Shown here: piece by piece, positions 15,988 through 20,017 of the stretch
Numbering within the stretch: position 1 is the stretch's first letter
How the letters are laid out: each line of letters begins with the position of its first letter
Source: a virus
IMG/VR virus record: IMGVR_UViG_3300020205_000847
Span: 1-20,017 of that record
DNA: 20,017 nt
Direction: 5' to 3' (one strand)
Program-made: the position numbers and the translations under genes
Notes under the pieces: model-generated
Told to the model about the DNA's origin: nothing
The model's input: only the letters and a program-made list of their open reading frames with translations
The model's database searches: none

Positions 15988-16755
15988 TTAAAAAGTTATC
16001 GAACCTGAACTAGTCCACTTATAAACTCTATATCCACCTGCTACTGTTATTGTTGTTGAACCAGTTGTTGCACTGGCTGCCGAATAGGTGTCAGCGTAGC
16101 GAATAATGACAACGCCGGAATTGCCTGTACCACCACCACCGTAGTTCATAAACCCCGTGCCGCCTTTGCCGGTGTTGGGTGCCTCGCTAGGATTATCATT
16201 GTAAGCTGATCCGCCACGAGCGTACTCGGTTGCTGTTCCCGAAATACTAAGTGTTAAACCTAAACCTCCTGTACCGTTAGGCTGGCCAGCGCCACCGGCG
16301 CCGCCGCCACCACCGACTTGCGTCCCGCCATCGTACCCTTGTCTAGGACCACTTATATAAATAGAATCCGGATAAATACCTCGACCAGTACCGCCGTTAT
16401 ATCTTCCTGCACCGCCCCCGGATCCGCCGTTAGTGGCCATACCACTTCCGCCACCTTTAGCAACAATAGTAAATGCAGAAGAATCTCCACCATTATTGTA
16501 AGAATAAATGCCGGATGAGGTACCGCCACCCCCGACTGTAATTGTGTAAGGGGTGCTTGTGGTCACACTAGTTGTTCCAGTTAATAGCCCGCCGGCGCCG
16601 CCTCCTCCACCATATTGGTTGGTATCTTGTACAGGACCACCTGACCCGCCACCCGCCACTATTAAATATTCCACTGTAGGTGGTAATGCTACTGGGAACG
16701 GTATATCAAACCCGCCCGAAAATGTCATACTACCTGTTATTGTAAATCCTGACAT
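15988..16755 (-). CDS. Glycine-rich tail adhesin-like protein (single module)
   Basis: The 255-residue protein has an N-terminal anchor-like segment MSGFTITGSMTFSGGFD, then PTVEYLIVAGGGSGG, a glycine-rich core with runs such as GGGGGAGG, and a C-terminal block GNSGVVIIRYADTYSAA followed by GGYRVYKWTSSGSITF. This layout matches the glycine-rich domain of many environmental phage fibre proteins, and the glycine-rich motifs are reminiscent of the polyglycine-II adhesin gp38 of phage S16. The ribosome-binding site AAGGATATAGTATG is shared with the next gene upstream. A role at the tail tip in receptor binding is inferred. Confidence 0.75.
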   Translation of the reverse strand: MSGFTITGSMTFSGGFDIPFPVALPPTVEYLIVAGGGSGGPVQDTNQYGGGGGAGGLLTGTTSVTTSTPYTITVGGGGTSSGIYSYNNGGDSSAFTIVAKGGGSGMATNGGSGGGAGRYNGGTGRGIYPDSIYISGPRQGYDGGTQVGGGGGAGGAGQPNGTGGLGLTLSISGTATEYARGGSAYNDNPSEAPNTGKGGTGFMNYGGGGTGNSGVVIIRYADTYSAASATTGSTTITVAGGYRVYKWTSSGSITF

Positions 16756-16798
16756 ACTATATCCTTATTTTGCAAAGTAATTCATTTTATCTTTTTAA

Positions 16799-17650
16799 TT
16801 AAAAAGTTATCGAACCTGAACTAGTCCATTGATATACTCTATATCCACCTGCTACTGTGATAGTAGGTGAGCCGGTTGTTGCACTGGCTGCCGAATAGGT
16901 GTCAGCGTAGCGAATGATTACGATACCTGAACCGCCTGCTCTACCGTCAACACTGCCCTGTCCAGCGCCTCCGCCGCCGCCGCCGCCAGTGTTTGTTCCC
17001 CCATTAGTTCCTGGAGTGCCGCCACCACCACCCGCGCCATTGCCACCACCACCAGAACCTCCTGCTGCTCCAGTGAGTGTTCTTGCACCGCCGCCGCCCC
17101 CTCCAGCGTAGGTAACAGAAGAACCTGAAATAGAAGACGCAGTTCCATTTCCCCCCGCTCCGCCGGCACCGTTCGATATTGAATTGGCCCCACTGGCTCC
17201 CGCTCCGCCACCACCACCACCGGAGTCGGTGTTGCCTCGGCCGCCTGAATTACCTTGTCCAACCGTTCCGCTTGTATTAACTGCAATACCATTACCAGAC
17301 CCCCCAGCAGAACCACCGGCTGATCCTGCCACGGTCTTATCTCCACCCTTTCCTCCGCCTATTGAGGTAATAGATGAAAATACTGAGTTTGATCCGTTTG
17401 TTGCGATATAGGAAGGGGCTACTCCCGCAGCACCGCCAGCGCCAACTGTAACCGTAATAGCAGAGCCAAAAGTAACAGACAAACCTGTTGCTGTTCTAAA
17501 TCCTCCGGCTCCACCACCGCCGCCATCGTCATATCCACCGGCACCACCACCAGCAACTACCAAGTATTCAACAGGTAGATCAGATGCCGGGAATGGTATA
17601 TCAAACCCACCGTCAAAAGTCATACTACCTGTTATTGTAAAGCCTGACAT
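16799..17650 (-). CDS. Glycine-rich tail adhesin-like protein (single module)
   Basis: This 283-residue paralogue has the same plan: N-terminus MSGFTITGSMTFDGGFD, PVEYLVVAGGGAGG, a longer glycine-rich core with SSISGSSVTYAGGGGGG and NTGGGGGGGAGQG, and the C-terminal block GGSGIVIIRYADTYSAA. N- and C-terminal parts are nearly identical to the gene at 15988, while the core differs in length and residues. This pattern fits swapping of the receptor-contacting core between conserved ends. It is preceded 12 bases upstream by the MSHFAKV gene and uses the leader AAGGATATAGTATG. Confidence 0.75.
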   Translation of the reverse strand: MSGFTITGSMTFDGGFDIPFPASDLPVEYLVVAGGGAGGYDDGGGGGAGGFRTATGLSVTFGSAITVTVGAGGAAGVAPSYIATNGSNSVFSSITSIGGGKGGDKTVAGSAGGSAGGSGNGIAVNTSGTVGQGNSGGRGNTDSGGGGGGAGASGANSISNGAGGAGGNGTASSISGSSVTYAGGGGGGARTLTGAAGGSGGGGNGAGGGGGTPGTNGGTNTGGGGGGGAGQGSVDGRAGGSGIVIIRYADTYSAASATTGSPTITVAGGYRVYQWTSSGSITF

Positions 17651-17662
17651 ACTATATCCTTA

Positions 17663-18028
17663 TTATGTTAACACTGTGGCTTTTTTCCAAGATGTAGTAG
17701 TTTCATCCCATGTATACATCTGTTCAGCAGATGCATCAGTGGGCATTGGGGTTGGTGGATTCCACAAACAAGTTGTTTCGTCTAGTAACCAACTTGGATA
17801 TGGACTAGGTGGAATAAACGCATCTCTTGTTGCGTCATATGTGTACCCAATTCCAGCATAATTTTTACGCAACGGAGTGTTACCTTGTGAATGCACTCCT
17901 CCACTGGTGTTATAACTTGTTTGAACCCATAATGCTGGATCTCCAAATAAACCTGTATTTACTACATCTTGTTCTATTACTATTACCTGAGTAACTATTC
18001 CGTTTTCTACTTTTGCAAAATGACTCAT
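17663..18028 (-). CDS. Small conserved phage protein MSHFAKV family
   Basis: This 121-residue protein begins MSHFAKVENGIVTQVIVIEQ, then WVQTSYNTSGG and LRKNYAGIGYTYDATRDAF, and ends with PPSPYPSWLLDE and WDETTTSW. I recall the same pattern from small proteins in cyanophages and freshwater phages, usually encoded beside tail-fibre genes, with no established function. Its ribosome-binding site AGGGAGA is the strongest in this block. Placed between two glycine-rich adhesin genes, it may be a fibre-associated or assembly protein. Confidence 0.8.
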   Translation of the reverse strand: MSHFAKVENGIVTQVIVIEQDVVNTGLFGDPALWVQTSYNTSGGVHSQGNTPLRKNYAGIGYTYDATRDAFIPPSPYPSWLLDETTCLWNPPTPMPTDASAEQMYTWDETTTSWKKATVLT

Positions 18029-18041
18029 TTTATCTCCCTAA

Positions 18042-19745
18042 TTAAAATGTTATTGAACCTGAACTGGTCCACTTATATACTCTATATCCACCTGCTACTG
18101 TTATTGTTGGTGAGCCAGTTGTTGCTGTTGCAGCAGCAGATGTATCTGCATAACGAATGATTATGATACCAGAACCGCCTACTGCGCCTGCTAGCGCACC
18201 GCCGCTATAACCGCCACCGCCACCGCCACCGCCAGTGTTAGATGTTCCTGCAGTTGCAAGAGTACCACCAGCAGTTCCTCCTGTACCTCCACCTCCAACT
18301 CCACCGGCACTCAGTCCAGTATAACCGCCGCCACCGCCGCCACCTGCATAGTATGTTGCGGTTCCTGAGATAGAACTTTGTAATCCTGCACCTCCACGAC
18401 CTAAATTACCTGATGCATCGTTATTATATCCTACCGCACCGGCTCCGCCACCCCCGCCTGCGTAATAATTATTGTTACCAGCAAATAAACCACCATTATT
18501 ACCTTGACCCGCAGTACCGACGCCACCACTTGTAACAGTAGTATTGTTTGTTCCGGCACCGCCACCTGAACCACCGTTACCACCAACACTGCCCAAACTG
18601 ACTCCGTCTCCACCACCACCACCACCTATAGCAGTTACAGTAGATATACCTGCACCAGAAATTATAGAATTGTCACCGTTATTTCCTCTTGCCACAGCAG
18701 AACTTGTTCCTCCGGCGCCAACAGTAATAGTAATTGCAGAGCTAGCGGTGACTGGTAAACCTGCAGCAGTTAAATAACCACCTGCTCCACCACCTCCACC
18801 ATATGGTCCACCACCACCGCCACCAGCAACTACTAAGTATTCTACTGTGGATGTAACTGGCAACGACCAGGTTATTGAACCTGAACTGATCCAATTGTAT
18901 ACTCTATATCCACCTGCCACTGTTATAGTAGGTGAACCGGTTGTTGCACTGGCTGCTGAGTATGTGTCTGCGTAACGAATGATTACAACACCACTGCCAC
19001 CTGCACCACCAGATCCACCACTGTTATAACCTTGGCCGCCACCACCGCCACCAGTATTTGCTGTACCATTTACAGCTGCCAATGGACTACCGTTACCACC
19101 ATTCCCACCACCACCATTCCCACCAGTTCCTATGCCAGCTGCGGCATATCCAATACCACCGCCGCCTCCACCTGCGTAGTATGTTGCACTACCTGATATA
19201 GATGACGATAATCCAACTCCACCATTACCTGACTGAGTGCTACCAACAGCGGCTCCACCCACTGCGCCTGCACCACCACCACCACCACTAGGGTACGGAT
19301 TAGAATAAGTGCCGCCAGCACCGCCTGCATTACCTTGCCCGGCCGGTGTTGCTGCTCCGCCTGCAGGAGCACCCAAACTATATTGACCAATACCACCGCC
19401 ACCGCCCGAACCTCCAGCTTTGCCGGCATTGTTATAACCACTACCCCCGCCGCCTGCGGCGCTGGTAATTGTGCTGAATACCGACGCAGATCCATTATTA
19501 CCGTCATCAGCAACGTTTGTTACAGCCGCGCCTCCTGCCCCAACTGTTACTGTAATTGCAGAACCAGCAGCAACTGCAAATCCAGTGTCTGTTCTATATC
19601 CACCTGCGCCGCCACCACCTGCATATCCTGCACCGGATCCCCCGCCGGCAACTACTAAGTATTCAACTGCGGGTGGCACTGCTGTTGCCACTGTTACAAA
19701 AGTAATGTTGGCAAATGTAATTCCACCGGTTAATGTCACGCTCAT
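18042..19745 (-). CDS. Two-module glycine-rich tail adhesin-like protein
   Basis: The 567-residue protein consists of two tandem copies of the glycine-rich module. The first starts after a short N-terminal segment (MSVTLTGGITFANITF) and ends in GGYRVYNWISSGSITW; the second restarts at SLPVTSTVEYLVVAGGG and ends in GGYRVYKWTSSGSITF. Each copy contains AVEYLVVAGGG or similar, SAITVTVGAGG, TYYAGGGGGG and IIIRYADT or VVIIRYADT blocks. The N-terminus differs from the MSGFTIT anchor of its two paralogues. A TATAAATA box at 19794-19801 lies upstream. The likely role is a receptor-binding fibre tip, by analogy only. Confidence 0.78.
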   Translation of the reverse strand: MSVTLTGGITFANITFVTVATAVPPAVEYLVVAGGGSGAGYAGGGGAGGYRTDTGFAVAAGSAITVTVGAGGAAVTNVADDGNNGSASVFSTITSAAGGGGSGYNNAGKAGGSGGGGGIGQYSLGAPAGGAATPAGQGNAGGAGGTYSNPYPSGGGGGAGAVGGAAVGSTQSGNGGVGLSSSISGSATYYAGGGGGGIGYAAAGIGTGGNGGGGNGGNGSPLAAVNGTANTGGGGGGQGYNSGGSGGAGGSGVVIIRYADTYSAASATTGSPTITVAGGYRVYNWISSGSITWSLPVTSTVEYLVVAGGGGGGPYGGGGGAGGYLTAAGLPVTASSAITITVGAGGTSSAVARGNNGDNSIISGAGISTVTAIGGGGGGDGVSLGSVGGNGGSGGGAGTNNTTVTSGGVGTAGQGNNGGLFAGNNNYYAGGGGGAGAVGYNNDASGNLGRGGAGLQSSISGTATYYAGGGGGGGYTGLSAGGVGGGGTGGTAGGTLATAGTSNTGGGGGGGGYSGGALAGAVGGSGIIIIRYADTSAAATATTGSPTITVAGGYRVYKWTSSGSITF

Positions 19746-19801: not shown

Positions 19802-19803
19802 AA

Positions 19804-19825
19804 AATAGGGACCGAAGTCCCTATT
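19804..19825 (-). terminator. Intrinsic terminator of the tmRNA gene
   Basis: On the minus strand a perfect 9-bp stem (AATAGGGAC with GTCCCTATT) closes on a TTCG tetraloop framed by C and G, the very stable cUUCGg form, and is followed by TTTATAAATA. It marks the 3' end of the tmRNA transcription unit. Confidence 0.9.
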
Positions 19826-20017
19826 GCTATTTTTGGTTACAAGGTATAACTACCTCGCCTTCTGGGTGCTTACGCAGCCATTAGGAATTTTTCATCATTT
19901 GCAGATAAAGGTTTTGCTTCTACGACCGAGTAGAGCGTCTTTCTATACTATGGGTATAGCGACTACACTTTGCCCCCAATCCTAACGGCTTCTACATTGC
20001 CGGACTGTCCATTTCAT
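19826..20017 (-). ncRNA. ssrA: tmRNA (partial), coding piece with tag ANDEKFLMAA
   Basis: On the minus strand an in-frame string GCA-AAT-GAT-GAA-AAA then TTC-CTA-ATG-GCT-GCG and TAA encodes ANDEKFLMAA and a stop (19870-19902). It matches the ANDE...AA form of bacterial tmRNA tags. A second possible resume codon GCA at 19915-19917 would lengthen the tag by five residues, to AKPLS plus the above; both have UA at positions -5 and -4. The stop is followed by only about 44 bases, including a 7-bp hairpin, before a strong terminator, with no T-arm or acceptor end. That fits the coding half of a permuted two-piece tmRNA. The TTCGAC region expected at the 5' side and the acceptor piece must lie beyond 20017. 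Confidence 0.72.

Follow-up and report, generated by a model that had tools for sequence, protein, structure and literature searches.

Phage-encoded tmRNAs are known and have barely been studied. The OM43 phage Melnitz carries a two-piece tmRNA whose ssrA gene groups with alphaproteobacterial tmRNA and has a glutamine riboswitch, and 53 two-piece phage tmRNAs have been reported, 50 of them marine or aquatic (PMC9004378). A merged model, RF04321, and 79 bacteriophage tmRNA sequences have also been published (PMC11915505), and a reduced tmRNA from phage DS6A acts as an inhibitor (PMC11915505, PMC4131195). Small structured RNAs beside phage tRNA genes include the theta ribozymes, which are HDV-like and flank phage tRNAs (PMC10879173). 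Because phage two-piece tmRNAs are already described (PMC9004378, PMC11915505), the gene examined here belongs to a known kind; what is new in it is an inserted module, which we call hairpin A.

The DNA analyzed, referred to as the window, is a whole IMG/VR virus record of 20,017 bases that ends at position 20017. The element at this end almost certainly represents one half, the coding one, of a circularly permuted tmRNA gene (ssrA) carried by the phage. It is cut at its 5' end by the end of the contig and is transcribed from 20017 towards 19802, so that the minus strand reads, in order, the PK1 region, a linker, the tag ANDEKFLMAA, a stop codon, a 44-nt spacer and a UUCG terminator. The features discussed below are the following.

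19802 to 20017, minus strand: coding piece (3' gene segment) of the permuted two-piece tmRNA, identified by its RF01850 match and by full homologous genes in relatives
19977 to 20002, minus strand: PK1 region CGGCAAUGUAGAAGCCGUUAGGAUUG, with CGG(C)/(G)CCG and CAAU/AUUG pairings, a likely H-type pseudoknot
19929 to 19972, minus strand: hairpin A, 44 nt, supported by a covariance model and by covariation, absent from contig L005 and most relatives
19870 to 19902, minus strand: resume codon GCA, tag ANDEKFLMAA and stop UAA, by direct reading and from the same tag reported by ARAGORN in relatives
19835 to 19855, minus strand: 3' structured segment AGGUAGUUAUACCUUGUAACC, with AGGUA/UACCU and GUUA/UAAC pairings, a hairpin in the predicted fold
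19804 to 19825, minus strand: UUCG hairpin terminator with a 9-bp stem, from the fold and a terminator scan
1 to 831: terminase large subunit (TerL), phrog_36964, E 1e-62

The RF01850 model of betaproteobacterial tmRNA matches positions 20014-19802 over its full length with 40.8 bits (E 9.8e-10; gathering score 84), while ARAGORN reported no tmRNA in the window; both the low score and the silence of ARAGORN are explained if the acceptor half lies beyond 20017, off the contig. By eye, PK1 likely forms an H-type pseudoknot, and its CGGC/GCCG pairing is aligned as a helix by RF04321 in relatives. The PK1 core GCAATGTAGAAGCCGTTAGGATTG recurs unchanged in at least 119 viral stretches, and was not found in 398 Pseudomonadota genomes with up to 3 mismatches allowed. 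The 3' segment AGGUAGUUAUACCUUGUAACC, which inspection suggests is a probable pseudoknot, aligns to the RF01850 consensus CCUUGuuACcaAA and is conserved in betaproteobacterial coding pieces. The terminator reads AATAGGGAC-TTCG-GTCCCTATT from 19825 to 19804; the scan lists its stem on the plus strand, and the minus-strand TTTTT overlaps the end of the stem. The sequence-only reading had placed the tag stop about 44 bases from the terminator with no T-arm between, and the distance from stop to stem is exactly 44 bases, again without a T-arm. When the 238-nt element was compared to named phages by BLAST, the only matches were terminator-like and due to chance.

Because the window is the entire record and could not be extended past 20017, the upstream half was looked for in relatives. 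A degenerate search with the 33-nt tag pattern found it in 13 other viral contigs, in most of which ARAGORN reported a permuted tmRNA with the same tag. RF04321, RF01850 or RF01849 scored above gathering in all of these contigs except L010, which is truncated 23 bases ahead of its tag, with 117-166 bits for RF01850 and 81-127 bits for RF04321. The relatives show a T-arm, CAGGUCC-ACCA, a spacer, and then GGGCCUG…UCGA and the coding piece, and an acceptor piece lies upstream in nearly all same-tag contigs with enough upstream sequence. The claim of a permuted, two-piece layout therefore stands, on the RF01850 match in the window and, in relatives, on tmRNA models above gathering, an upstream T-arm and CCA, the intervening segment and TCGA, and full acceptor pairing. 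A script could pair the two pieces in about 80 distinct phage loci, and the acceptor stem pairs at 7/7 positions in essentially all of them. The alanine identity pair G3·U70 occurs in 81 of 83 rows, the two exceptions (L321 and L259) being misassignments. The acceptor sequences vary and still pair (GGGCCUG/CAGGUCC, GGGGAUG/CAUCUCC, GGGGGUG/CACCUCC, GGGCCGG/CCGGUCC), which indicates selection for a tmRNA. Nothing else points as strongly as this pairing across phages to the window piece being part of a working type of gene.

The gene resembles the betaproteobacterial permuted tmRNAs of RF01850 and RF04321 in its piece order and alanine-type acceptor, both seen in relatives, in the 3' end of its coding piece, with CCUUGuaACcaAA and a terminator, and in its tag of the form ANDExF..AA. 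The phage family differs in that PK1 is larger, the PK1-to-tag linker has an additional GGG/CCC hairpin, where hairpin A is inserted, and the spacers between the pieces are longer. The window gene and the Melnitz gene are both permuted, two-piece ssrA genes of large aquatic phages with myophage-type genomes, but the window gene fits the betaproteobacterial model best and bears hairpin A, whereas the Melnitz gene is of alphaproteobacterial type with a glutamine riboswitch (PMC9004378).

If the gene works as its relatives suggest, the minus-strand transcript would start beyond the contig end with the acceptor piece (T-arm, 3' strand of the acceptor, and CCA), continue through a spacer and the coding piece in the order seen in relatives, and end at the UUCG terminator. 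By analogy with known two-piece tmRNAs, the spacer would be cut out and the two RNAs would stay joined by the acceptor and P2 helices. The tmRNA would then be charged with alanine, as G3·U70 in relatives predicts, and the particle would bind host SmpB and enter ribosomes stalled on the mRNA ends that accumulate during infection, where the appended ANDEKFLMAA would mark the product for degradation. The acceptor piece lies outside this record, and the window gene could be broken upstream. It is very improbable that we are looking at a remnant in decay or without an acceptor, left over from recombination or titrating SmpB, instead of part of a working tmRNA. The reduced tmRNA of DS6A is a precedent for this explanation, and the acceptor half is not within the window. 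However, the window has an intact tag, PK1, 3' hairpin and terminator, the relatives' tags vary yet keep reading frames with AA- or NA-type termini, and acceptor complementarity holds across changing acceptors (GGGCCUG, GGGGAUG, GGGGGUG), all of which argue for a working tmRNA.

The tag frame, read on the minus strand from 19902 to 19870, is GCA AAU GAU GAA AAA UUC CUA AUG GCU GCG UAA. The tag first read from the sequence is thus confirmed, both directly and by the RF01850 match and the same pattern in the 13 viral contigs. Its MAA ending had been called unusual, but this does not hold, because the Rfam betaproteobacterial consensus ends in AMAA, as do nine of the 120 bacterial tmRNA tags that we fetched with ANDExFA[L/M]AA; ANDERFAMAA and ANDENFAMAA are bacterial examples. 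The pattern ANDE[x]FLMAA had no match in 84,980 GTDB-species contigs, so that the tag points to no host and L at position 7 has so far been found in phages alone. The phage family is diverse in its tags, which include ANDSQFALAA, ANDAYFGEDRLAA and ANDSQYLVAANA, among others. Long tags of 28-33 amino acids were observed in L035, L062, L076, L088, L096 and L272 (for example ANASKGEVTVTGKNVKFSARTAQRQPLAV and ANANTTGTVKVTMGKNFRFGRQAANDSAVLLAA), and tags in L015, L017, L025 and L081 end in LAANA or VAANA (for example ANDETYLLAANA), whereas ClpXP-type degrons do not usually have such a C-terminus.

The gene had also been described as phage-encoded, and the rest of the record agrees, since TerL, thymidylate synthase and dihydrofolate reductase (DHFR) are encoded in this IMG/VR virus record, together with a MoxR-type ATPase. 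Nearly all genes in the window are on the minus strand, in an 18-kb run of mostly same-strand genes. The TerL is closest to those of PA5oct-like jumbo phages (56%). A downstream gene block is common to the window and six contigs (L020, L044, L098, L119, L025 and L283), in which VWA-like proteins are 77-80% identical to that of the window; the MoxR-type ATPases of all but L283 are 81-84% identical. These six contigs bear tmRNAs of the window's type upstream of the MoxR-type ATPase and VWA-like block, and the element thus keeps a stable place within a family of large aquatic phages. Three glycine-rich proteins (255, 283 and 567 amino acids), encoded on the minus strand at 15988-19745, share the C-terminal repeat ..GGYRVYKWTSSGSITF, and are probably tail-fibre-like paralogs.

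Hairpin A was overlooked when the locus was first read, in contrast to the permuted tmRNA, which was correctly recognized and is supported by RF01850 and the acceptor pieces of relatives. Most relatives have, after PK1, a short GGG-NNN-CCC hairpin, then GGUCG and the tag leader. Where this GGG/CCC hairpin, which lies between PK1 and the tag, would have its 3-nt loop, the window has about 40 nt folding into an irregular hairpin, with the core GUCG-CUAUAC-CCAUA-GUAUAG-AAAGACG at 19936-19963 and the tetranucleotide GTAG at its foot. The R1 covariance model scores the window copy, which is one of its training sequences, at 64.4 bits (E 4e-17). Across 53 copies, 92.8% of the cells in the model are paired, and 103 cells show double changes, compared to a mean of 30.8 in shuffled alignments (none of 500 shuffles was as high) and 5-39 in slid controls; the covariation score was 0.388 versus 0.143. 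Several invariant positions were imposed by the search pattern, but the covarying outer helix and the upstream UA, present in over 90% of copies, were not. The outer 4-bp helix has different compensating sequences at each site, with UA, AU, GC and CG pairs. Covariation thus supports a single-hairpin fold, which has no double pseudoknot. A second mini-tag within hairpin A (UAGUC/GCU AUA CCC AUA GUA UAG) was considered and dropped, since compensatory changes in other copies destroy its codons.

Nine other contigs, with differing tags, contain the identical 44-mer, and a relaxed pattern found 80 stretches. These fall into 64 distinct contexts, of which 34 are phage tmRNAs (with two script misfilings corrected by hand) and 15 lie 5-7 nt from a tRNA 3' end, a fixed distance indicating that the outer stem begins directly at the end of the tRNA; the remaining contexts are leaders or intergenic RNA, with one or two chance matches. 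Hairpin A is therefore portable, occurring in phage tmRNAs, at tRNA 3' ends and in other leaders. Named phages that have it are Synechococcus phage S-SZBM1, where it stands behind tRNA-Pro, S-B05 and DSL-LC02. In some phages hairpin A is present although no permuted tmRNA was detected, and a 259-kb record has the two 17 kb apart. Two supposed copies, in L261 and L274, were rejected as chance matches at 20.6 bits. A search of 300 bacterial genomes of the host-type order gave one weak match only. No Rfam 15 family matches hairpin A, and we found no description of it in the open-access literature, within collections and literature whose coverage is incomplete. Hairpin A is thus an RNA motif, absent from Rfam 15, that is common to phage tmRNA linkers and phage tRNA trailers, and the PK1-to-tag linker, which is short in the one-piece tmRNAs that have been studied, here accepts whole RNA modules.

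We tentatively favor the reading that a factor of the host or the phage, one that binds or processes RNA, recognizes hairpin A as a module tolerated in the PK1-to-tag linker, because it replaces an ordinary short loop and because the same conserved internal loops stand behind phage tRNAs. REP/RAYT palindromes are imperfect hairpins with GTAG at their foot. Hairpin A shares both traits and occurs in several unrelated contexts, so that it might instead be a mobile palindrome, of REP/RAYT or IS200/605-like type, lodged in a tolerant loop and lacking any RNA function. This is quite improbable, since the outer helix compensates site by site, which a transposed block would not produce, and the spacing to tRNA 3' ends is fixed. 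Furthermore, hairpin A is present in one copy in 21 of 22 phage records; this can be read in favor of such a palindrome, but differs from REP families, and hairpin A does not behave as a mobile block in many copies per genome.

The single copy per genome is also what might be expected of a cis-acting transcription signal, such as a put-type antiterminator that would allow read-through of tmRNA or tRNA terminators into downstream phage genes. In the window, hairpin A is followed by the terminator and the 18-kb gene run, and in L260, L280, L304, L309 and S-B05 it directly follows a strong promoter-like sequence. In contrast, the copies in tRNA trailers lie inside tRNA arrays and not near promoters, and 22 other related phage records bearing tmRNAs lack hairpin A, making such a role unlikely. 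A number of cyanophage-type loci (L260:3955-3998, L280:1016-1059, L304, L309 and L331:1493-1536) have hairpin A just after a TTGACT...TATAAT promoter-like sequence and before a conserved GGACGCAAGUAAGUCGC leader.

A further explanation, that hairpin A is a 3'-end processing element of stable phage RNAs (a nuclease site or a small self-cleaving ribozyme), draws on its start exactly at tRNA 3' ends and on the theta ribozymes, which likewise flank phage tRNAs (PMC10879173). Unlike these, however, hairpin A is a single irregular hairpin that also occurs inside tmRNAs; it has no HDV-like double pseudoknot and matches no Rfam ribozyme, and cleavage inside the coding piece would part PK1 from the tag. 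We consider this explanation doubtful. Returning to the recognition module, we can conceive of a signal, acting in trans or in cis, that large aquatic phages employ in the form of a portable hairpin, with UA-GUC-G-stem-NCAUA-stem'-AAA-GAC-G enclosed by an outer helix of variable sequence. Each genome would have this signal at one site, be it a tRNA trailer, a leader or the PK1-to-tag linker of a permuted tmRNA, and in the linker it may control the processing or activity of the tmRNA through a phage or host factor, a proposal to which we give somewhat less than an even chance. If hairpin A does recruit a factor, the phage would be able to control how ribosomes are rescued during infection. For trans-translation, the insert could be harmful instead of neutral.

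Other features were observed in related phage tmRNA genes. A different insert of about 40 nt (insert B, ..AUGAUCUGAAGCAAGCUAGUCUUGACAGUAGGAUU..) occupies the same hairpin loop in L028, L044, L051, L084, L102, L122, L325, L327 and L328; it is unrelated to hairpin A and was seen only in tmRNAs, its matches elsewhere (L326 and L329) being chance matches in coding sequence. About 17 related genes have a protein ORF of 36-122 amino acids within the permuted tmRNA spacer, as in the following examples.

L005, 1854 to 2222, minus strand: spacer ORF
L039, 2889 to 3248, plus strand: spacer ORF
L273, 3182 to 3517, minus strand: spacer ORF
L060, 4627 to 4941, plus strand: spacer ORF
L258, 2964 to 3224, minus strand: spacer ORF
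L015, 1013 to 1207, plus strand: spacer ORF
L272, 13067 to 13201, minus strand: spacer ORF

These ORFs have a Shine-Dalgarno sequence, AAGGAA, directly after CCA, and their stop codons coincide with the first G of the coding piece or lie a little ahead of it. Most differences between copies are at third codon positions (22 of 31 in one example), and two match the GNAT and CxxCxxCC families. The Shine-Dalgarno sequence can pair with the end of the spacer and might thus be exposed by processing, and a protein gene in this position would mechanically couple tmRNA maturation to expression of a small protein. Finally, a 286-kb phage contig carries a GOLLD RNA (L001:10928-11336, plus strand) about 4 kb from its permuted tmRNA and tRNA cluster.
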